45,494 nt of DNA. Origin: an uncultured Clostridia bacterium (GTDB lineage Bacteria; Bacillota; Clostridia; Christensenellales; Borkfalkiaceae). The notes under the pieces are model-generated. The model was not told the DNA's origin, did no database searches, and saw nothing but the letters and a program-made list of their open reading frames with translations. A program made the translations under genes and the position numbers. Positions 10,410 through 31,368 of the stretch are shown in pieces. The stretch's first letter is position 1, and every line of letters begins with the position of its first letter. The DNA is taken from positions 1-45,494 of the forward strand of contig CALVME010000009.1 in assembly GCA_944342055.1 (NCBI GenBank), read 5' to 3'.

Positions 10410-11460
10410 GCTGCGCCTCTCTGTCCGCGAGGGCGAGCGCGTCCAGCATTTCCTGGATGTCGCCCATCATGAATCCCTCGATGTTGAACGTGCTGAAGCC
10501 GATGCGGTGATCGGTGACGCGGGACTGCGGGAAATTGTAGGTGCGTATGCGCTCGCTTCTGTCGCCCGTGCCGACCATGCTCTTGCGGTTCTGCGCGTAT
10601 TCGCTCTGATTCTGCTGATTGTAATAATCGTACAATCTGGAGCGCAACACTTTGAACGCGCGCTCCTTGTTCTTGAGCTGAGAGCGCTCGTCCTGACAGG
10701 AGACGACGATGCCCGTCGGGAAGTGCGTGATGCGGATGGCGGTCTCCGTCTTGTTGACCTTCTGTCCGCCCGCGCCAGAGGAGCGATAGACGTCCACCCG
10801 AATATCCTTTTCGTTGATCTCGACTTCGACGTCCTCCGCCTCGGGGAGCACGGCGACCGTCACCGTCGAGGTGTGCACTCTGCCCTGCGACTCCGTCTCG
10901 GGGACGCGCTGGACGCGGTGAACACCGCTCTCGTACTTGAGCGCCTTGTACGCGCCCTTGCCCGAAATGTTGACGACCGCCTCTTTCATGCCGCCGAGCT
11001 CCGTCTCGTTGAGTTCGACGGGCTCGAACTTGAATCGGCGCTTTTCGCAATAGCTCTGATACATGCGATAGAGCTCGTAGGCAAAGAGCGCCGCCTCGTC
11101 GCCGCCAGCGCCGCCGCGGATCTCGAGGATGCAGTTTCTTTCGTCGTTTTTGTCTTTGGGGAGCAGAAGGATCTTGAGTTCCTCCTGAATTCCCGCGAGC
11201 TTCTCCTTGCAGGCATGCCCCTCTTCGTTGAGCATATCCCGCATCTCCTTGTCTTCCTCCGATTCCGCCGCGGCGAAATCGTCGTTCATCTCCTTCTCAA
11301 CAGCGCAGTATTCCCTGTATTTCTCCGCGACCTCTTCGATCTCGGCGCGCTCTTTGGAATACTTCGTCCACTGCTCCATGTCTGCGAGCACGTCTCCGTC
11401 CGCGAGCAGGCGGTTGAGCTCTTCGTAGCGTCTGATGATGTCGTCCAACTTTTTCAGCAT
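10390..11460 (-). CDS. prfA: Peptide chain release factor 1
   Basis: Reads UAA and UAG and releases the finished peptide at the ribosome. It has 356 residues, normal for RF1. The codon-recognition motif is Pro-Glu-Thr at 187-189 (RF1-type PxT), and the catalytic GGQ is at 231-233 in RSSGAGGQKVNKTETAIR. The frame is open 33 codons further upstream, but ATG 11460 begins MLKKLDDII as in other RF1 proteins. It overlaps the stop of the upstream prmC fusion in ATGCTGA. PrmC methylates the Gln of this GGQ, so enzyme and substrate are encoded side by side. Confidence 0.97.
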   Translation of the reverse strand: MLKKLDDIIRRYEELNRLLADGDVLADMEQWTKYSKERAEIEEVAEKYREYCAVEKEMNDDFAAAESEEDKEMRDMLNEEGHACKEKLAGIQEELKILLLPKDKNDERNCILEIRGGAGGDEAALFAYELYRMYQSYCEKRRFKFEPVELNETELGGMKEAVVNISGKGAYKALKYESGVHRVQRVPETESQGRVHTSTVTVAVLPEAEDVEVEINEKDIRVDVYRSSGAGGQKVNKTETAIRITHFPTGIVVSCQDERSQLKNKERAFKVLRSRLYDYYNQQNQSEYAQNRKSMVGTGDRSERIRTYNFPQSRVTDHRIGFSTFNIEGFMMGDIQEMLDALALADREAQLAGSEE

Positions 11461-13238
11461 ATCTTTACGATCCTTTCCACTCCTTCCAGGTCTTTGATGA
11501 TCTCCGTCTTCCTCCCCTCGAAAAAGGAACAGATCGAATGCGCCTGTTCCTCGCCGCACTCAAACAAGATCGCACCGCCCTCCTTGAGGTGTGCGGGCGC
11601 CTCCTCTGCCATGCGCCGATAAAAATCCATGCCGTCTTCTCCGCCGTCGAGCGCCATGTGCGGCTCGAACTCCCTGACCTCGCGCTGCATCTTTGCGATG
11701 AAGCCCGTCGGCACATAGGGCGGATTGCAGACGATGAGATCGAACTTCCCCTCGACCTTTTCGAGCAGATCGCTCTCGACGAAAGTCACGCCGACGCCGT
11801 TTGCCTCCGCGTTTTCCTTTGCGAGGGAGAGCGCCTCCGCGCTCAGATCGGAGGCGGTCACCTCCGCGCCCGTCTCCTTGGCGATCGCAATCGCAATGCA
11901 GCCGCTGCCCGTACAGACGTCGAGCACGGTGCGCCTGCCCCGCTTCACCTCGCGGATGGCGGCGGCGGCGAGCTCCTCCGTCTCAGGCCTCGGAATGAGG
12001 GCGCGCGCATCCGTCTTGATCGTCACGCCGCAAAAATCGGTATCCCCCGTGATGTACCACAGCGGTTTTCCCGTCAGCCGCTCCTCGACCGTCTTCTGTA
12101 TCTCTCTCTGCGCGGAAGGCGCGACCATGCGCTCCGCGGCAAGTTCGCTCCTGTGGATGCCGAGCCCCATCGCATAGATCCACTCCGCATCCGACTCGTC
12201 GATATCCGCCTCGGAAAATTGCTTTTTCGTCCTCTCCAACAGCACGGAAAGCTTTTCGGAGAGCACGAACCTGCTCTCGGGTATGGCTGCGTCCCCGTCC
12301 ATGTCGCGCACGCGCGTGAACGCCGCGATCGCCACTTCGATCATGTCGTCCGTCGGCTCCTGCGTCGTGATGCGCTGCAACAAGAGCCCGGGCGCCTTCA
12401 ACGGGAGCACAAGTTTGCTGTCCGTCTTTGCGAGTGCCTTCAAAAGCTCATAGGAAATGCCCGCGACCACGGGCAGGAGCACGATCTCGGTGCCCAGCCG
12501 CGCGAGGAGGCGCAGCGCGCCGTTCTCGATCGCGCCCAGCCGCAGGAAGTACCCCACCAGCGCAAAGAGCAGAATGTTCACCGCGACGACGAGAAAGAGG
12601 AAGGTCGTGCCGCACCTGTCGTGCACGCGGGAGCAGCCGCGCACGTTTTCCACGGTGAGCTCTCTGCCCGCTTCGAAGCAGGAAATCGTCTTATGTTCCG
12701 CGCCGTGATACATGAAGGTGCGGCGCATGTCCTTGATCAGGAGCATGCAGAGAAGGTATAAAATGAAGATGACGAGTTTGATCGCTCCGACGACGACGTA
12801 ATACCACGCGCTCTCTTTGGGGAGCCCCGAAACGTCAAAGATGAGCCCCGTCAGAAACTGCGGCAAAAAGAAGAAGAGTCCGAGCGCGAGCAGAACTCCG
12901 AGCAAAAGGGAGACCGTCGCCACCGCGTCCATGATGTCGATGTGCAGCTTTTCGGCAAAAAATTTTTCCGTCTTGCTCGGTTCTTCCTCCTCGTCGGCAT
13001 AAACTTCCGCCGAGCGCATGAGGCATTTGGTGCCGTCGATCGTGGAGACGAGCAGATTTTTGACGCCCCGCACGAACGGCAGATCGAAAAACGAACGCTT
13101 CCTCGCGGGGAGCCGCTCCGCCTCGATCTGAATGTTGCCTTCGCCGTCGCGCACGGCAGACGCCATCGCCGTCTTGCCGCGCATCATGACGCCTTCGATG
13201 AGCGCCTGACCGCCGATATACGTTTTTTTTGCTTTCAT
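11454..13238 (-). CDS. prmC: Fusion: DUF1385 membrane domain + PrmC release-factor glutamine methyltransferase
   Basis: One 594-residue frame. Residues 1-310 are a complete DUF1385 (YqhQ) protein: GGQALIEGVMMRG start, transmembrane segments near 104-136, 148-169, 211-231 and 245-265, HGAEHK at 178-183, and the usual family end (LLLQRITTQEP…EVAIAAF). Residues 320-594 are PrmC: helical N-terminal domain, IPRPETE (415-421), SAM loop VLDVCTGSG (438-446) and substrate-Gln motif NPPY (505-508). Related genomes usually have DUF1385 and prmC as neighbours; here no stop or start separates them. PrmC modifies the GGQ of RF1 and RF2. The fusion would tether it to the membrane. It lies 54 bp after rpmE, past a terminator, and overlaps prfA by 7 bp. 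Confidence 0.92.
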   Translation of the reverse strand: MKAKKTYIGGQALIEGVMMRGKTAMASAVRDGEGNIQIEAERLPARKRSFFDLPFVRGVKNLLVSTIDGTKCLMRSAEVYADEEEEPSKTEKFFAEKLHIDIMDAVATVSLLLGVLLALGLFFFLPQFLTGLIFDVSGLPKESAWYYVVVGAIKLVIFILYLLCMLLIKDMRRTFMYHGAEHKTISCFEAGRELTVENVRGCSRVHDRCGTTFLFLVVAVNILLFALVGYFLRLGAIENGALRLLARLGTEIVLLPVVAGISYELLKALAKTDSKLVLPLKAPGLLLQRITTQEPTDDMIEVAIAAFTRVRDMDGDAAIPESRFVLSEKLSVLLERTKKQFSEADIDESDAEWIYAMGLGIHRSELAAERMVAPSAQREIQKTVEERLTGKPLWYITGDTDFCGVTIKTDARALIPRPETEELAAAAIREVKRGRRTVLDVCTGSGCIAIAIAKETGAEVTASDLSAEALSLAKENAEANGVGVTFVESDLLEKVEGKFDLIVCNPPYVPTGFIAKMQREVREFEPHMALDGGEDGMDFYRRMAEEAPAHLKEGGAILFECGEEQAHSICSFFEGRKTEIIKDLEGVERIVKIC

Positions 13239-15545: not shown

Positions 15546-16072
15546 AACTTCTCATCGCTTCCGACCTGCACGGCTCGGCTTATTACTGCAAAAAACTCAT
15601 CGGGCGCTTTCAGGCGGAAGGCGCGGACAAACTCATCCTGCTCGGCGACCTCCTCTATCACGGCCCGAGAAATCCCCTGCCCGCGGAGCACGATCCGAAG
15701 GCGGTCTGCGCCATGCTCAACCCGCTTTCCGACCGCATTTTTGCCGTTCGCGGCAACTGCGACGCGGAAGTCGATCAGCTCGTGCTCGATTTCCCCGTCC
15801 TCGCGGATTACGCCGTCCTCTTTCTGAACGGCAAGACGGTATATCTCACGCACGGTCACAAGGAAATTCCCGCGCTGCAAAAGGGCTCCCTCCTCATCAA
15901 CGGACATTTCCATGTTCCCGCATGCGAAGACCGCGGGGATTACCGCTATCTCAACTGCGGCTCGCTCGCCCTGCCCAAAGACGGAACGCCGCACTCGTAT
16001 CTCCTCTACGATGAGGGCACGTTCCTCTGGAAGGACGCGGACGGGAACGAATTCCTGCGCGAGACGATCTGA
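15542..16072 (+). CDS. YfcE/MJ0936-family metallophosphodiesterase
   Basis: Protein of 176 residues, the normal size of this calcineurin-like family. Metal ligands are visible in order: SDLHG (Asp8/His10), LLGDLLYHG, RGNCD (the GNCD motif), LTHGHK and NGHFHVP. Activity is against phosphodiesters or small phosphate esters with a divalent metal; the physiological substrate is unknown. It starts in an ATGA overlap with the HAD gene, and a terminator follows 16 bases after the stop. Pairing of a HAD phosphatase and YfcE is seen in other Bacillota. Confidence 0.9.
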   Translation: MKLLIASDLHGSAYYCKKLIGRFQAEGADKLILLGDLLYHGPRNPLPAEHDPKAVCAMLNPLSDRIFAVRGNCDAEVDQLVLDFPVLADYAVLFLNGKTVYLTHGHKEIPALQKGSLLINGHFHVPACEDRGDYRYLNCGSLALPKDGTPHSYLLYDEGTFLWKDADGNEFLRETI

Positions 16073-16087
16073 AACCTCAAAAAAACG

Positions 16088-16120
16088 AAACATCCGCCTA
16101 TCGCCGGATGTTTTCATTTT
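16088..16120. terminator. Bidirectional terminator between yfcE-type gene and queH
   Basis: 9-bp stem AAACATCCG/CGGATGTTT (16088-16096 with 16105-16113). On plus it is followed by TTTTCATTTT; on minus a T-rich run follows. It serves the two convergent genes. Confidence 0.75.
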
Positions 16121-16127
16121 GTCACGC

Positions 16128-16790
16128 TTACGTCCGTTTTTCTTCTCTCCCTGCGCCGCCAGCCTCCGAGAGCTCTTCCGCCCGCGCGGTGTGCCGCGAA
16201 AGCGCCTCACGCTCGGAAAAGACGCATCCGCAGAAGTTCTGCCGATACAGCCCGTATCGCTTGGACAGCTCGATGCTTCTGAGATACCCGCCCTTCTTTT
16301 TGAAATCGCTCGGCAAGAAGGCGACGCCGTACTTCTCAGCACAGGCAAAGCCGATCTGATTGAGCCACTCCGCGTTTTTGAGCGGGCTGACGGTGAGCGT
16401 CGTGGCAAAATAATCGTATCCTCCCTCCCTGGCGCGGTGCGCCGTCTCCTCCAGCCGAAGCGAAAAACAACGATAACACCTGGCTCCGCCCTCGGGAGCG
16501 CCTTCGTATCCCGCGGCGACGCGCAAAAACGCCTCTTCGTCGTGGTCGCAATCGACAAAATCCGCCCAGCCCGTCTCCGAGAGAAGCCGCTTTTGTTCCT
16601 GCTTCCTCTTTTCGTATTCCTCGCCGCAGATATTCGGGTTGTAATAGAGCACGCTCACGCGGAAAACGGCGTGCAGCACCTCGAGACAATGCGAAGAGCA
16701 TGGCGCGCAACAGCTGTGCAGAAGAAGCGAACTGCCCTGCGAACGCGCCATGATCTCTTCCATTTCCCGATTGTAATTTCTCTTGTTCAT
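16128..16790 (-). CDS. queH: Epoxyqueuosine reductase QueH
   Basis: Reduces epoxyqueuosine to queuosine in tRNA anticodons, the non-cobalamin alternative to QueG. It has 220 residues. The family motifs are intact: LLHSCCAPCSS (residues 23-33), a second cysteine pair in CYRCFSLRLEETA, and NFCGCVFS near the C-terminus; together they hold the Fe-S cluster and redox centre. The N-terminus MNKRNYNREMEEIMARSQ matches the usual start of clostridial QueH. The ATG at 16790 lies exactly six bases after a consensus -10, with no room for a Shine–Dalgarno. No other queuosine gene is in the window. Confidence 0.94.
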   Translation of the reverse strand: MNKRNYNREMEEIMARSQGSSLLLHSCCAPCSSHCLEVLHAVFRVSVLYYNPNICGEEYEKRKQEQKRLLSETGWADFVDCDHDEEAFLRVAAGYEGAPEGGARCYRCFSLRLEETAHRAREGGYDYFATTLTVSPLKNAEWLNQIGFACAEKYGVAFLPSDFKKKGGYLRSIELSKRYGLYRQNFCGCVFSEREALSRHTARAEELSEAGGAGREEKRT

Positions 16791-16796
16791 GCCGAC

Positions 16797-16825
16797 ATTA
16801 TAACCCGCTTTCCCGCATTTGTCAA
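16797..16825 (-). promoter_or_regulatory. Consensus promoter of queH, abutting the start codon
   Basis: Minus strand TTGACA (16825-16820), 17-base spacer, TATAAT (16802-16797): both hexamers are perfect. The ATG begins six bases after the -10, at the expected transcription start, which predicts a leaderless mRNA. Confidence 0.88.
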
Positions 16826-16959
16826 CCGCCGCGCTTGCACATTTCCCTCCCGCCCTTGACGCCCCGCCGCCCGCAAAGGGAAAGAAGCTTTTGAAGCGGC
16901 GTCGGCTTTCAACGACAAACCGCCTAAGATCCATCCTCCATCCGCAGATTTTACCATAC

Positions 16960-16990
16960 AAAAACGCCCGCCTCCGTTGGGAGGCGGGCG
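16960..16990 (-). terminator. Terminator after xfp
   Basis: Perfect 11-bp GC-rich stem (16965-16975 with 16980-16990) and a GTTG loop (CAAC on the minus strand), followed on minus by five Ts. The remaining 16826-16959 stretch shows nothing recognisable. Confidence 0.88.
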
Positions 16991-17011
16991 CCTTGGTTTT
17001 AAGCGGAACGC

Positions 17012-19459
17012 TTATTTCTTGTCGATATACTGATCTCTCTCTTCGGGAGTATGCCACTTCCAAGCCTGGATCTCGGGAAGGTCTTCGCCCTTATCCGCGA
17101 TGTAGTTCTTATGCTCGACGAGCTTGTCGTTCATAAGCTGTACGAGGAAGGACGCCTTGTTTCCGAGCTGAGGCAGAGCCATGACTGCCGCCTTGACGAG
17201 GTGGAAACGGTCGATGTGGTTCTGGACGCGCATATCGAACGGCGTCGTGATCGTGCCCTCTTCCTGATATCCGAATACCTGCAAGTTCTTGTTGTGACGG
17301 GTATAGGTGAGCTCGTGGATGAGCTTGGTATAGCCGTGGTAAGCCATGACGATGGGCTTATCCTTCGTGAAGATCGCATCGTATTCCGCATCGGTCAAGC
17401 CGTGAGGATGCTTCTCGTGAGACTCGAGCTTGAACAGGTCGACCACGTTGACGAAACGGATCTTGATGTTCGGCAGATAGTCGCGGAGAATCGTTGTAGC
17501 GGCAAGCGCTTCGAGCGTCGGCGTATCGCCGCAGCAAGCCATGACGAGATCGGGCTCTTCACCCGCGTCGGAGCTTGCCCAGGACCAGATGCCGATGCCC
17601 TGCGTGCAGTGGTTGACAGCCTCTTTCATGGTGAGCCACTGGAAGGAAGGATGCTTGGACGCAACGATGACGTTGACGTAGTTCTTGCTCTTCAGGCAGT
17701 GATCCATGCAGGAAAGGAGGCAGTTTGCATCGGGCGGAAGGTACATTCTGACGACGTCTGCCTTCTTGCAAGCGACGTGGTCGAGGAATCCGGGATCCTG
17801 ATGCGTGAAGCCGTTGTGGTCCTGCTGCCATACGTTGGAAGTCAGGATGAGGTTCAAAGAAGCGATGGGCTGACGCCACTGCAATTCCTCGCAGACTTTC
17901 AGCCACTTCGCATGCTGTGCAACCATGGAGTCGACGACACGGATGAAGGACTCATAGGAAGCGAAGAATCCGTGACGGCCGGTCAGGATGTAGCCTTCCA
18001 GCCAACCTTCGCACATATGCTCGGACAGATAGGAATCCATGATTCTGCCGTCTTTTGCGAGCGCGGAGCCGTCCTTCGTCGCGGGATTGTAATCATCGTC
18101 GGTATCGAGCGTCTTCGCCTGCCAGTCGCGGGACGTCGCCTCGAACGCATAGTAGAGGCGGTTGGACATCGTCTCGTCCGGTCCGAAGATGCGGAAGTTC
18201 TTGGTGTCCGCATTGAGCTTGAAGACATCGCGAATGTACGCGCCGAGCTCCATCATATCCTGCGCCTTGACGCCGCCGGGTACGGGAACGTCCACGCCGT
18301 ACTTCGTGAAGTCGGGCAGGCGGAGGTTGCGGAGCATCTTGCCGCCGTTTGCGTGGGGATTTGCGGAAATTCTGCTGTCACCCGTGGGAGCGAGCGCTCT
18401 CAGCTCGGGGATCAGACGATAGTTCTCGTCGAACAGCTCTTCGGGGCGATAGCTCTTGAGCCATGCTTCGAGTTTTGCGAGGTGCTCGGGCTTGGACATA
18501 TCGATGGGAACCTGATGCGCGCGGTAAGAACCCTCGATGGGCTTGCCTGCGTCGTTGAACTTGGGTCCCGTCCAGCCCTTCGGCGTGCGGAGCACGATCA
18601 TCGGCCAGAAAGGTCTCTCGGTCAGCTCGCCGCTTCTCGCCTTCTGCTGAATGTCCTTGATCTCCTTGATGCACTTGTCGAGCGTCTCCGCCATCAGTCG
18701 ATGCATCGCCATGGGTTCGCTGCCTTCGGACTCTACGAAATAAGGCTTCCAGCCGCAACCGTGGAAGAAGCTCTTGACTTCGTCCTCAGAAATGCGCGCG
18801 AATACGGTCGGGTTGTTGATCTTGTAACCGTTGAGGTGCAGGATGGGCAATACCGCGCCGTCCGTTGCGGGATTGAGGAATTTATTGCTGTGCCATGCGG
18901 TAGCGAGAGGGCCGGTCTCCGCCTCGCCGTCGCCGACGGTAACGGCAGCGATCAGGTCGGGGTTATCGAATACCGCGCCGAAGCCGTGAGCCAGGGAATA
19001 ACCGAGCTCACCGCCCTCGTTGATGGAACCGGGGGTTTCGGGCGCGACGTGGCTCGAAATACCGCCGGGGAAGGAAAACTGTTTGCACAGTCTCTTCATA
19101 CCCTCTTCGTCCTGACCGACGTTCGGATACACTTCGGAATACGTTCCCTCCAGATAGGAGTTCGCGACGAAGAAGTTTCCGCCGTGTCCGGGACCGGACA
19201 GAAGAATCATATCGAGATCGAACTTCTTGATGACTCTGTTCAGATGCACATAGATGAAGTTCTGTCCGGGCACCGTTCCCCAGTGACCGACGATCTTCTT
19301 CTTGACCTGTTCTCTGGTGAGAGGCTTTCTGAGAAGAGGGTTGTCGAGCATATACAGCTGTGCCGCTGCCAGATAGTTGGCGGCGCGCCAATATGCGTCC
19401 AGCTTCTTCAGGTATTCCTCAGTCAGAGGCTTCTTCTCGGGACAGTCTGCTGTTCTCAT
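17012..19459 (-). CDS. xfp: Phosphoketolase (Xfp)
   Basis: Thiamine-diphosphate enzyme splitting xylulose 5-phosphate (and often fructose 6-phosphate) with phosphate into acetyl phosphate plus glyceraldehyde 3-phosphate or erythrose 4-phosphate. It has 815 residues, full length for the family. Both phosphoketolase signatures are present: [20 protein letters not shown] and [20 protein letters not shown]. Also present are [12 protein letters not shown] in the N-terminal domain and the C-terminal TWHS-region [14 protein letters not shown] 19459 has AAGGAAGG 12 bases upstream, and the leader is about 85 bases. Codon use favours C-ending codons, suggesting high expression. It is a stand-alone unit, with acetate kinase not nearby. 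Confidence 0.97.
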
Positions 19460-22973: not shown

Positions 22974-23002
22974 TTGCAATTTGCATGCGCCTGTGATACA
23001 AT
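22974..23002 (+). promoter_or_regulatory. Promoter of the RecD-like helicase, abutting the start codon
   Basis: TTGCAA (22974-22979), 17-base spacer, TACAAT (22997-23002). ATG at 23009 follows after six bases, which predicts a leaderless mRNA. Confidence 0.75.
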
Positions 23003-23008
23003 GGGCGT

Positions 23009-24262
23009 ATGGACGGCGTGAAACTTACTTCCGATCAGGAAAAAGCAAAAGAATGTATGCTCGACTGGTTTTTCAACCGCAGCGCGCAGACGTTTGTCCT
23101 GTTCGGCTACGCGGGGACGGGGAAGACCTTTCTCATCGACTACGTCGTACGCGAGTGTTTTCGCCTCGTCCCCGATGAAAGCGCCATGTTCGTCACGCCG
23201 ACGGGAAAGGCGGCGACCGTGCTCATTCGGGCAGGGACCCCGGCAGGCACCATTCACAGCCTCATCTACCGCAAAGAAGAGGCGGAGGAAACATACGTCG
23301 ACGAAGAGACGGGCGAAATTTTTAAGCGGGAGCGGCTCGTCTTCAAAAAACGAGGCTCCATCGCCGACGAGATCAAACTGCTCGTCATCGACGAGGCGTC
23401 CATGGTCAACGACGAGACCATAGGAGATCTTCTCAGCTTCGGCGTCAAATGTCTCTTTTCGGGGGACGACGCCCAGCTCCCGCCCGTACAGGGCAGAAAT
23501 TCCCTCATCCCGGACGTGACGCTCACGGAGATCGTGCGCCAGGAGGCGGAAAACCCCATCGTTCGCGTCGCTTCCCTCGCGCGCGAGGGAGGGCCCATTC
23601 CTTACGGCACTTACGGCGACAGCGTGTGCGTCATTCCGCGCAGAAAATTTCAAGGCGACGTCCGCGCGCGCCTGCTCAAGGCGGCCGATCAGATCCTGTG
23701 CGGCACCAACTCGACGCGCAACAAAGTCAACGCCGAAGTCCGCTCGCTCCTCGGCTACGAGGGCACCCTGCCGCAGAGCGGGGAAAAGCTCATCTGCACC
23801 CTCAACAACTGGGACAGGAGCATCGATTGCGAGGAAAAATTTCACCTCGTCAACGGCATCATCGGCTATTGCCAAAACCCCGCATATTTTGCAGACGACC
23901 TCGCAAAATGCGCTTTCCGCGCCGAGTTTTTGGACGACGTCATCGACGACGTCCCCTTCGATACGGGCATTTTTTCGCACGGGACGTTCCGTTACGGATT
24001 CGGAAAAGAGCGCATGGTCTGCCTGCTTTCGGACGGAAGCGTCGTCACGCAGGACGAAGGCAGGCGCGGCAAGACGTTCGTCGAAGAAGTAGAGCCCGCC
24101 AACCGCTTCGAATTCGGCTACGTTATCACCTGCCACAAGGCGCAGGGGTCCGAATTTGACTTTGTCATCGTATTCGACGAATCGTATTGCTTTTCCGAAA
24201 GGAGCAAATGGCTGTACACCGCCATCACGCGCGCAAAGCAGAAATTGCTCATCGTCCGATGA
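23009..24262 (+). CDS. RecD-like / Dda-like superfamily 1B DNA helicase
   Basis: ATP-dependent 5'-3' helicase of 417 residues. Motifs in order: LTSDQEKA (Q-motif region), Walker A GYAGTGKT (33-40), VTPTGKAATVL (Ia), TIHSLIY, Walker B LLVIDEASMV, FSGDDAQLPPV (III), LTEIVRQ (IV), and the C-terminal TCHKAQGSEFD (V) and WLYTAITRAKQKLLIV (VI). The size and lack of an N-terminal RecD extension resemble phage Dda and stand-alone bacterial relatives. A role in repair or replication restart is likely, without a RecBC partner nearby. The mid-region 255-330 is variable. The start is fixed by a promoter ending six bases before ATG 23009. Confidence 0.92.
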   Translation: MDGVKLTSDQEKAKECMLDWFFNRSAQTFVLFGYAGTGKTFLIDYVVRECFRLVPDESAMFVTPTGKAATVLIRAGTPAGTIHSLIYRKEEAEETYVDEETGEIFKRERLVFKKRGSIADEIKLLVIDEASMVNDETIGDLLSFGVKCLFSGDDAQLPPVQGRNSLIPDVTLTEIVRQEAENPIVRVASLAREGGPIPYGTYGDSVCVIPRRKFQGDVRARLLKAADQILCGTNSTRNKVNAEVRSLLGYEGTLPQSGEKLICTLNNWDRSIDCEEKFHLVNGIIGYCQNPAYFADDLAKCAFRAEFLDDVIDDVPFDTGIFSHGTFRYGFGKERMVCLLSDGSVVTQDEGRRGKTFVEEVEPANRFEFGYVITCHKAQGSEFDFVIVFDESYCFSERSKWLYTAITRAKQKLLIVR

Positions 24263-29081: not shown

Positions 29082-30689
29082 TCAGCCGATCTTGTACACG
29101 TCGCTGTGCGCGCAGTCCACCGAATCGACTTGCGTGTATCTCCCCAACGTCTCAAAGGAGATCCCGTTTTCCTCGCAAAGTTCGCGCACCAGAGCGAGCG
29201 CGTCCGCGGGGAAGGCGTCGCTCGCAAAGAGCCAGACCGTTTTTCCCGCCTGTGCGCTCTCCACCATATCGTCCGCCTCCCACATGACGGGATTCTGATG
29301 CACGACCCAGGATTCCTCCACCGAAGGGCCGTACGCATAGCAGCGCCCCGAGCCGAGCATCGCCGTCAGCGCCGTCCGCGCAAAGACGCCGTCCGCCACG
29401 ACGATGTCGTCCTCGCCGATCTTGTCCAGCACTTCCGCGCGGTAAATGTAATATTCGTCGCGCTCCTTTGCGTAAGCCTTCCACGCCTGCACGGTATTGA
29501 TCGAGCCGCTGATCGCAAGGCAAACGGTGAGAAGGGACAAAAAAGCGACGTTCACAAAGGGCATCGCCTTTTTTGCGATCGCCTTCGCGTCCTTACCCGC
29601 CTCCGAGAGCGTGCGGAAGGGATTTTCGAACAGCCGCGCCGACATGACACACACGGGATACCAGACGCACCCGAGCGCGGGGAAAATGTAGCGGTTGAAC
29701 ACGGGATGATTGGTCAGCGCGGGAATCAGCGTCAGCGACAGCGAAACCGCGAGGAAGGTCGCAATGCCGATGAGCCCCGTCAGATTGACGGCGTCGAGAC
29801 GGTGCCTGACGAACGCAAGCGCGAGGCAGACAAGGCAGATTGCCGAGACGAACCAGTGGAAATCCTTCCACGCCGCGGGGAAGTAGAAGGCAAAGACGTA
29901 ATACTGCTGCCAGTCGCCCCAGTTGACCGCGCCGGAGCTTCCCTCCGAATACGTGTTGATCTGCCGGAGGAGGTAGTACATCCAGGGCGCGTACAAAAGG
30001 ACGGTCGCGCCCGCAAAGATGGCAAATCTGACGAGCGCCCTGCGGTTTCGGACGATCAGATAAATGAAGAGCCCCAGCCACAGGAAGAACACGGACAACA
30101 AGGCAAAGTACTGCGTGTATGCCGCGCACAGCGTATGGAACGAGAGCGCGCACCAGGCAAAAATGCTGTTCGGATCTTTTATGACCTGATACAGGTGAAT
30201 GAGCGCCGCCGTCACAAATCCCATGCTCCAGGAATACATGCGGATCTCGCTCGCGTAAGTGAACAGATTGGGCATGGTGACGATGAGCAGCGCAAACGCG
30301 CCCGAGACGATCCACCCGAAATCCCTGCGCACGAAAATCAGGCTGTACACCCACAGCGCGACGTAAGGGAACACAGAAAAGCACTTTGCAACGACGATGC
30401 GGTCGGCGCCGACGAGGCTCGTGGCGTCGATGCAGAATTTCAGCATGCAGTAATAGAGCGGCGGATGCACGTCGTGCGCGGTCAGATAGACGAGACGCAG
30501 ATAACCCTGCTCGGTGAGCCAGAACGAAAAGTACTCGTCCCACCAGACGCTTCCCGCCGCACAGGAAGCGAACATCATCCCGATGACCGCCGCCGCAAGC
30601 GCATAAAGCACGACGGCGATCCGGAATTCTTTTCGATGCGCAAGCGCATGCAAGCTCTCTTTCAGGTTCTCCTTCAAGCCCGTTTTCAT
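29082..30689 (-). CDS. GT-C-type membrane glycosyltransferase (mannosyltransferase-like)
   Basis: Polytopic protein of 535 residues with about ten hydrophobic helices. The first outer loop has VWWDEYFSFWLTEQGY followed by HDVHPPLYYCML. This is the D/E plus H-P-P-L-Y-Y signature of GT39/GT83-type enzymes using polyprenyl-phosphate sugars. SEIRMYSW and NRYIFPALG further along are also typical. A soluble C-terminal portion (about 430-535) follows the last helix. ATG 30689 overlaps the nth stop by four bases (ATGA), with GGAGG upstream, so it is translated with nth. A longer reading through upstream frame is not supported. The acceptor is unknown. Confidence 0.85.
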   Translation of the reverse strand: MKTGLKENLKESLHALAHRKEFRIAVVLYALAAAVIGMMFASCAAGSVWWDEYFSFWLTEQGYLRLVYLTAHDVHPPLYYCMLKFCIDATSLVGADRIVVAKCFSVFPYVALWVYSLIFVRRDFGWIVSGAFALLIVTMPNLFTYASEIRMYSWSMGFVTAALIHLYQVIKDPNSIFAWCALSFHTLCAAYTQYFALLSVFFLWLGLFIYLIVRNRRALVRFAIFAGATVLLYAPWMYYLLRQINTYSEGSSGAVNWGDWQQYYVFAFYFPAAWKDFHWFVSAICLVCLALAFVRHRLDAVNLTGLIGIATFLAVSLSLTLIPALTNHPVFNRYIFPALGCVWYPVCVMSARLFENPFRTLSEAGKDAKAIAKKAMPFVNVAFLSLLTVCLAISGSINTVQAWKAYAKERDEYYIYRAEVLDKIGEDDIVVADGVFARTALTAMLGSGRCYAYGPSVEESWVVHQNPVMWEADDMVESAQAGKTVWLFASDAFPADALALVRELCEENGISFETLGRYTQVDSVDCAHSDVYKIG

Positions 30690-31333
30690 GTCTCCTCCTT
30701 TTCGCCGTGCGATGCGGCGTATTCGCACCATGCGCGCAGGGCGCATGTCCCGCAATCGGGCTTCTGCGCATGGCAGACCTGCCTGCCATGATAGATAAGC
30801 CAGTGGTGCGCCTTCGACCAAAGCTCCTTGGGGATCGCCGCCCTCAGCTGAAGCTCCGTCTTCTCGGGGCTGTCCGCATGCGCGAGCCCCAGGCGGTTGC
30901 TCACGCGGAAGACGTGCGTATCCACGGCGATGGCGTCGCCGCCGAACCAGACGGAATAGACGACGTTCGCCGTCTTCTGCCCCACGCCCGCGAGCGATTT
31001 GAGCTCCTCCGTCGTCCCGGGCACCTCTCCGTGAAAGCGCTCCAGAATGTCGCGGCTCGCGGAGAGAATGTGCTTCGCCTTGCTCTTGTATAGCCCGCAA
31101 GGAAAGACGATGCGGGAAAGCTCCTCTTCGGAGAGCTCCAGCATGGTCTGCGGCGTATTGTGCTTTGCAAACAGCACTTCCGTGACGAGGTTGACGCGCA
31201 CGTCCGTACATCGCGCGGACAGGTTCACCGCGACGAGCAGCTCGTACGCCGAGCGGTAACGGAGCGCGGGCTTCGCTTCGGGATACGCCGCCTGCAATGT
31301 CTCTATGATCTTTACGCGTGTTTCTTCAGTCAT
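30686..31333 (-). CDS. nth: Endonuclease III
   Basis: DNA glycosylase/AP lyase for oxidised pyrimidines, 215 residues. Helix-hairpin-helix LAGVGQKTANVV has catalytic Lys120, and Asp138 is in VDTHVFRVSNRL; both match E. coli numbering. The 4Fe-4S loop C-x6-C-x2-C-x5-C is intact near the C-terminus. The Gln41 of the E. coli enzyme, which fills the gap left by the flipped base, is Arg here (NLSARCTDVRVN). ATG 31333 lies six bases after a TATAAT, so the mRNA is predicted to be leaderless. A membrane glycosyltransferase follows in an ATGA overlap. Confidence 0.95.
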   Translation of the reverse strand: MTEETRVKIIETLQAAYPEAKPALRYRSAYELLVAVNLSARCTDVRVNLVTEVLFAKHNTPQTMLELSEEELSRIVFPCGLYKSKAKHILSASRDILERFHGEVPGTTEELKSLAGVGQKTANVVYSVWFGGDAIAVDTHVFRVSNRLGLAHADSPEKTELQLRAAIPKELWSKAHHWLIYHGRQVCHAQKPDCGTCALRAWCEYAASHGEKEET

Positions 31334-31339
31334 ATCTGC

Positions 31340-31368
31340 ATTATACTACACTTACGGCAATTTTACAA
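31340..31368 (-). promoter_or_regulatory. Promoter of nth, abutting the start codon
   Basis: Minus strand TTGTAA (31368-31363), 17-base spacer, TATAAT (31345-31340). It overlaps the 3' end of the DUF3343 gene. The ATG follows the -10 after six bases. Confidence 0.78.

Follow-up and report, generated by a model that had tools for sequence, protein, structure and literature searches.

Leaderless initiation itself is already known, and the queH gene described here, from gut Clostridia, is a well-documented new case predicted from sequence. According to the passages of Zheng et al. 2011 (PMC3160421) drawn on here, leaderless genes recognised by a TANNNT signal occur in 56 of 209 Firmicutes genomes at an average of 4.2% (2.4-16.6%). 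In those genes, as at queH, a -10 box about 12 bases before the start codon takes the place of the Shine-Dalgarno sequence. These passages take Lactococcus lactis as their Firmicutes example and describe the phylum as mostly low in GC, whereas the lineage considered here is an uncultured Clostridia lineage with 56% GC. Moreover, unlike in those passages, one orthologous gene was traced across genera. Leaderless transcripts make up 8.6% of the mRNAs in Streptococcus pyogenes, and 81% of them lack a leader in S. agalactiae as well (PMC6431027), indicating that the conservation of leaderless starts is already known. The 5' ends of the streptococcal transcripts were measured, while those of the queH lineage are predicted from conserved geometry. 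Transcript maps of Enterococcus also contain leaderless mRNAs, which are mostly AUG-initial and account for less than 1% of the mRNAs (PMC7724050). In the literature searched, no paper was found that names leaderless genes together with the Christensenellales.

The window, the whole stretch of 45,494 nucleotides that was analysed, contains queH on the minus strand (16128..16790), encoding a protein of 220 amino acids. A Pfam profile search matched the QueH domain (PF02677) at full length, covering profile positions 1-175 of 175 with a value of 3.9e-63. Cysteines C27, C28, C31, C35, C81, C105, C108, C187 and C189 are invariant in the alignment. Judged by its sequence, the protein is an ordinary PF02677 member, for which epoxyqueuosine reductase activity is predicted from family membership; the noteworthy part is the expression mode alone. 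The closest named relatives are found in Clostridia MAGs and in Candidatus Borkfalkia avistercoris (59% identity). Borkfalkia is placed in the Christensenellales by NCBI, and the bases immediately upstream of the Ca. B. avistercoris queH match those of a genome of genus g11. The lineage studied here belongs to the Clostridia and is probably close to Borkfalkia.

The gene caller had missed the RecD/PIF1-like helicase gene and shortened queH, and the starts were then set from homologues. The initial annotation had regarded the queH ATG (16788..16790) as probably right on account of a conserved N-terminus. M1 was indeed invariant in an alignment of 12 orthologous proteins, and the homologues did not place the start downstream behind a Shine-Dalgarno sequence. 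A further TACAAT-N6-ATG occurs inside the gene (16763, minus strand), where Tyr-Asn codons lead to M10 at codon 10, a residue that all aligned family members share. This internal match is probably a coincidence.

The region upstream of queH was read on the minus strand (16825-16788) as TTGACA AATGCGGGAAAGCGGGT TATAAT GTCGGC ATG, exactly the perfect promoter that had been claimed for it. The -35 box (16820..16825) and the -10 box (16797..16802) are separated by a 17-base spacer, six bases lie between the -10 box and the ATG, and both boxes are conserved in orthologues. A promoter scan showed this to be the sole 12/12 sigma-70-type site within 15900-17300. There is no usable Shine-Dalgarno site before the ATG at 16790, its place being taken by the -10 box, in agreement with the initial annotation, which held that no ribosome-binding site would fit.

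The upstream neighbour of queH is a phosphoketolase gene on the same strand (17012-19459). The gap between the two genes holds a terminator-like hairpin (16965..16990) of 11 pairs, GC-rich, which is not assigned to one strand and is followed by five T on the minus strand too. A second terminator-like hairpin lies downstream of queH (16088..16113, minus strand). Since the promoter is the only strong one nearby and terminator-like hairpins stand on both sides, queH is probably a single-gene transcription unit. The predicted transcript begins 5'-AUGAACAAG, and its first 60 nucleotides fold weakly (z = +1.4). A search against Rfam found no RNA families in the window and hence no sign of a riboswitch. 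A TAAAAT-N6-ATG at 16953-16939 (minus strand), in the gap upstream of queH, heads a very short open reading frame and is probably due to chance.

From the geometry of the promoter, its conservation and the absence of a Shine-Dalgarno site, all of which were read directly from the sequences, we infer both the exact 5' end and the route of translation. The queH mRNA is very probably leaderless and transcribed from the A of its own ATG (16790) by a consensus promoter of the sigma-A type. The prediction of leaderless expression in the initial annotation is supported in silico by the distance spectrum, the geometry of 25 orthologues, the invariant M1 and the conservation of the nth and helicase starts, as described below. 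RNA polymerase would start seven bases past the -10 box, where a pyrimidine-purine step coincides with the start codon. Against this stands the fact that bacterial polymerases are able to start 6-9 bases past the -10 box, and a sequence by itself does not fix the exact base chosen. The queH mRNA would then open with 5'-AUG, leaving no room for a Shine-Dalgarno site. By the most likely route, the ribosome, as a 70S particle or assisted by IF2, would bind the 5'-terminal AUG directly together with initiator tRNA, as leaderless mRNAs are described to do in the parts of PMC9031893 and PMC6431027 relied on here. The same arrangement would serve a minority of genes, among them nth and those encoding a RecD-like helicase, a PcrA/UvrD-type helicase, a DinB-type polymerase, RsmG and PrmA.

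The frequency of this geometry was evaluated in the genome, which comprises 1.76 Mb in 104 contigs, is 84.6% complete and has 56% GC. In the window, TATAAT-N3-20-ATG occurs seven times against 0.74 expected. Genome-wide, there are 31 matches to TATAAT-N6-ATG, compared with four for the reversed pattern and ten at distance 13. The counts for the 31 distances from 0 to 30 sum to 385, or about 12 for each distance apart from six. Furthermore, the genome contains 57 perfect TTGACA-17-TATAAT promoters and none of the reversed control. An ATG lies exactly six bases past seven of the 57, whereas the ATG frequency of 1.4% (24,572 ATGs on both strands of 877,319 bases) would give about 0.8 such cases.

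A distance spectrum was obtained from 680 gene models, representing half the genome, with matches of at least 5/6 to the -10 box and at least 4/6 to the -35 box. The genome-wide count proposed in the initial annotation gave a sharp peak: there were no ATG starts at distances 3-5, 21 at 6, eight at 7 and at most two at each distance from 8 to 15, beyond which the spectrum rises broadly with the ordinary leaders. GTG and TTG starts showed no peak, with zero and one, respectively, at distance 6. The contigs analysed first had mostly been selected for carrying the pattern, so contigs holding an exact TATAAT-N6-ATG are over-sampled and the height of the exact-TATAAT peak at six is inflated. For this reason the whole-genome counts are given alongside, as are the boxes other than TATAAT, which fall outside the sampling criterion; these number six at distance 6 and zero or one at the other distances between 3 and 15. 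A simple classification of 671 genes gave 38 leaderless-like genes, 460 with a Shine-Dalgarno site and 173 with neither; the majority of the genes in the genome retain a Shine-Dalgarno site. Allowing for the sampling, the leaderless share may be roughly estimated at 3-5% of genes. This rough figure falls inside the Firmicutes range reported in the cited passages of PMC3160421 and differs from the value below 1% of mRNAs in Enterococcus (PMC7724050).

The base preceding the ATG was also evaluated. A pyrimidine is present in 30 of the 31 TATAAT-N6-ATG matches in the genome, compared with 45% of all ATGs. Because starts led by a Shine-Dalgarno sequence already have a pyrimidine at this position in 73% of cases, the fair probability for 30 of 31 is p = 0.0008. 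Six other genomes of the family had a pyrimidine in 115 of 144 matches (80%), and six genomes from other families of the class in 64 of 148 (43%).

The queH gene was present in 96 of the 101 genomes of the family. In most of those examined from genera g1, g3, g5, g8 and g11, the -35 and -10 boxes are 17 bases apart and the -10 box is six bases from the ATG. When 25 orthologues from these five genera were aligned on the ATG without gaps, strong information was found at the -35 box, the -10 box, position -1 and the first codons, and a G-rich stretch precedes the -10 box. At positions -5 to -2 the sequence is close to random (0.15-0.20 bit). All 25 orthologues have C or T at position -1, giving a pyrimidine-A step at every predicted transcription start. 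These sequences were selected for distance six, while the pyrimidine at -1 was no criterion; they are related and hence not independent.

The initial annotation had proposed a recurring expression mode in this lineage, and the proposal held for some genera of the family. In other genera (g2, g4, g6, g7, g9, g10, g13, g14 and g17; loci L048-L051, L053 and L101-L134), the queH start often lies inside an upstream open reading frame or almost touches it. A clear Shine-Dalgarno sequence is often absent from these starts, and the overlapping arrangement suggests translational coupling. One genome of genus g3 (G020, locus L060) has a perfect queH promoter about 50 bases upstream, together with a GTG start, a properly spaced AAGGAGG and an N-terminal extension, so that here the leader comes with a Shine-Dalgarno site. 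By its sequence, this genome represents a change between leaderless and Shine-Dalgarno-led queH within one genus. In one named relative (L142), a consensus promoter lies 11 bases from the ATG and no Shine-Dalgarno site is evident. In the Lachnospiraceae and other Clostridia, queH is mostly without the six-base promoter and lies for the most part behind an upstream gene or a Shine-Dalgarno site. The AT-rich genera of the family showed no excess of N6 over N13. Since AT-rich genomes swamp the signal, the class-wide N6/N13 ratio, for which the non-family total covers a subset of the class genomes, is weak as a sole measure. Some genomes of two other families of the class (f2 and f44) have more TATAAT-N6-ATG than N13 matches, and the mode may therefore be common elsewhere in the Clostridia.

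The two further genes to which the initial annotation had ascribed the six-base geometry both proved to have it, and in both it is kept in relatives. The nth gene, encoding endonuclease III (30686..31333, minus strand; TIGR01083 above its cut-off), is preceded by TTGTAA-17-TATAAT (31340..31368), six bases from the ATG at 31333. This distance is kept in g1, g12, g8 and g11 and in one of two genomes each in g3, g5 and g10; it is not shown in most AT-rich genera. The gene for the RecD/PIF1-like helicase (23009..24262, plus strand) has TTGCAA-17-TACAAT (22974..23002) six bases before the ATG at 23009; the distance is six in g1, g8 and g10 and eight in g5. Genes for RsmG, a DinB-type polymerase, a PcrA/UvrD-type helicase and PrmA also look leaderless in the same genome (L001:10327, L002:7575, L003:9342 and L014:541). 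Ten further leaderless-looking genes were checked, and several, these four among them, function in repair or modification. This is a lead from ten genes towards a possible functional enrichment. Elsewhere in the window, the open reading frame at 11454-13238 (minus strand) is an apparent fusion of a DUF1385 domain (residues 53-311) and a PrmC-type methyltransferase (about residues 333-512).

The possibility was considered that the polymerase starts one to three bases before the A, or at several adjacent positions, which would leave a leader of too few bases to contain a ribosome-binding site. The choice of transcription start site naturally varies over a few bases. Moreover, some genes have a distance of 7 (eight, against 21 at 6), and the helicase relatives in g5 have a distance of 8. 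However, all 25 of the aligned queH orthologues have a distance of six and a pyrimidine at -1, which favours the A itself, and a slightly earlier start is regarded as a real but distinctly lesser possibility. Since translation would still be of the leaderless kind, such a start is a variant of the preferred explanation and not its opposite.

Two other explanations depart further from it. One is that queH is expressed mainly from a longer transcript, by read-through from the phosphoketolase gene or from another promoter, with translation starting behind a leader and the near promoter being incidental. Upstream of queH no stop codon closes the frame as far as about 17090, and this stretch includes an in-frame ATG at 16934 with GGAGG directly before it. 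However, the GGAGG touches this ATG, so that the spacing is wrong for use as a Shine-Dalgarno site, and the stretch that holds the ATG has no counterpart in the orthologue alignment. In addition, the GC-rich hairpin with its five T stands between the genes and orthologues in other genera keep the near promoter, which together make a longer transcript very unlikely as the main source of QueH. The other explanation is that transcription from this promoter, which would be real, begins inside the ATG and translation of QueH at a later codon such as M10, given that this methionine does not vary among the aligned family members and lies six bases past a TACAAT. However, both M1 and the Asn-Tyr region at the N-terminus are kept even in Lachnospiraceae sequences that lack M10 (MNKINYQ or similar). 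The internal TACAAT encodes Tyr-Asn, the best -35 box there matches at only 3/6 positions, and no Shine-Dalgarno site precedes M10. A start at this codon is thus very unlikely, and leaderless expression from the A of the first ATG is the preferred explanation.

Leaderless starts are easily mis-annotated by gene finders that expect a Shine-Dalgarno sequence. The conserved six-base geometry provides a test for uncultured genomes that needs nothing beyond their sequence and locates the transcription start as well as the start codon. A further proposal, which we consider unlikely, is that selection in this Clostridia family keeps leaderless initiation in a functionally related group of low-abundance housekeeping genes for DNA repair and for the modification of RNA or protein (nth, the RecD-like and PcrA/UvrD-type helicases, the DinB-type polymerase, rsmG, prmA and queH). 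This would give them a shared route of entry into translation, whose response to stress or to altered initiation factors would differ from that of genes led by a Shine-Dalgarno sequence. Within one family, queH occurs in leaderless, Shine-Dalgarno-led and overlapping arrangements, which makes it useful for studying how modes of initiation evolve.
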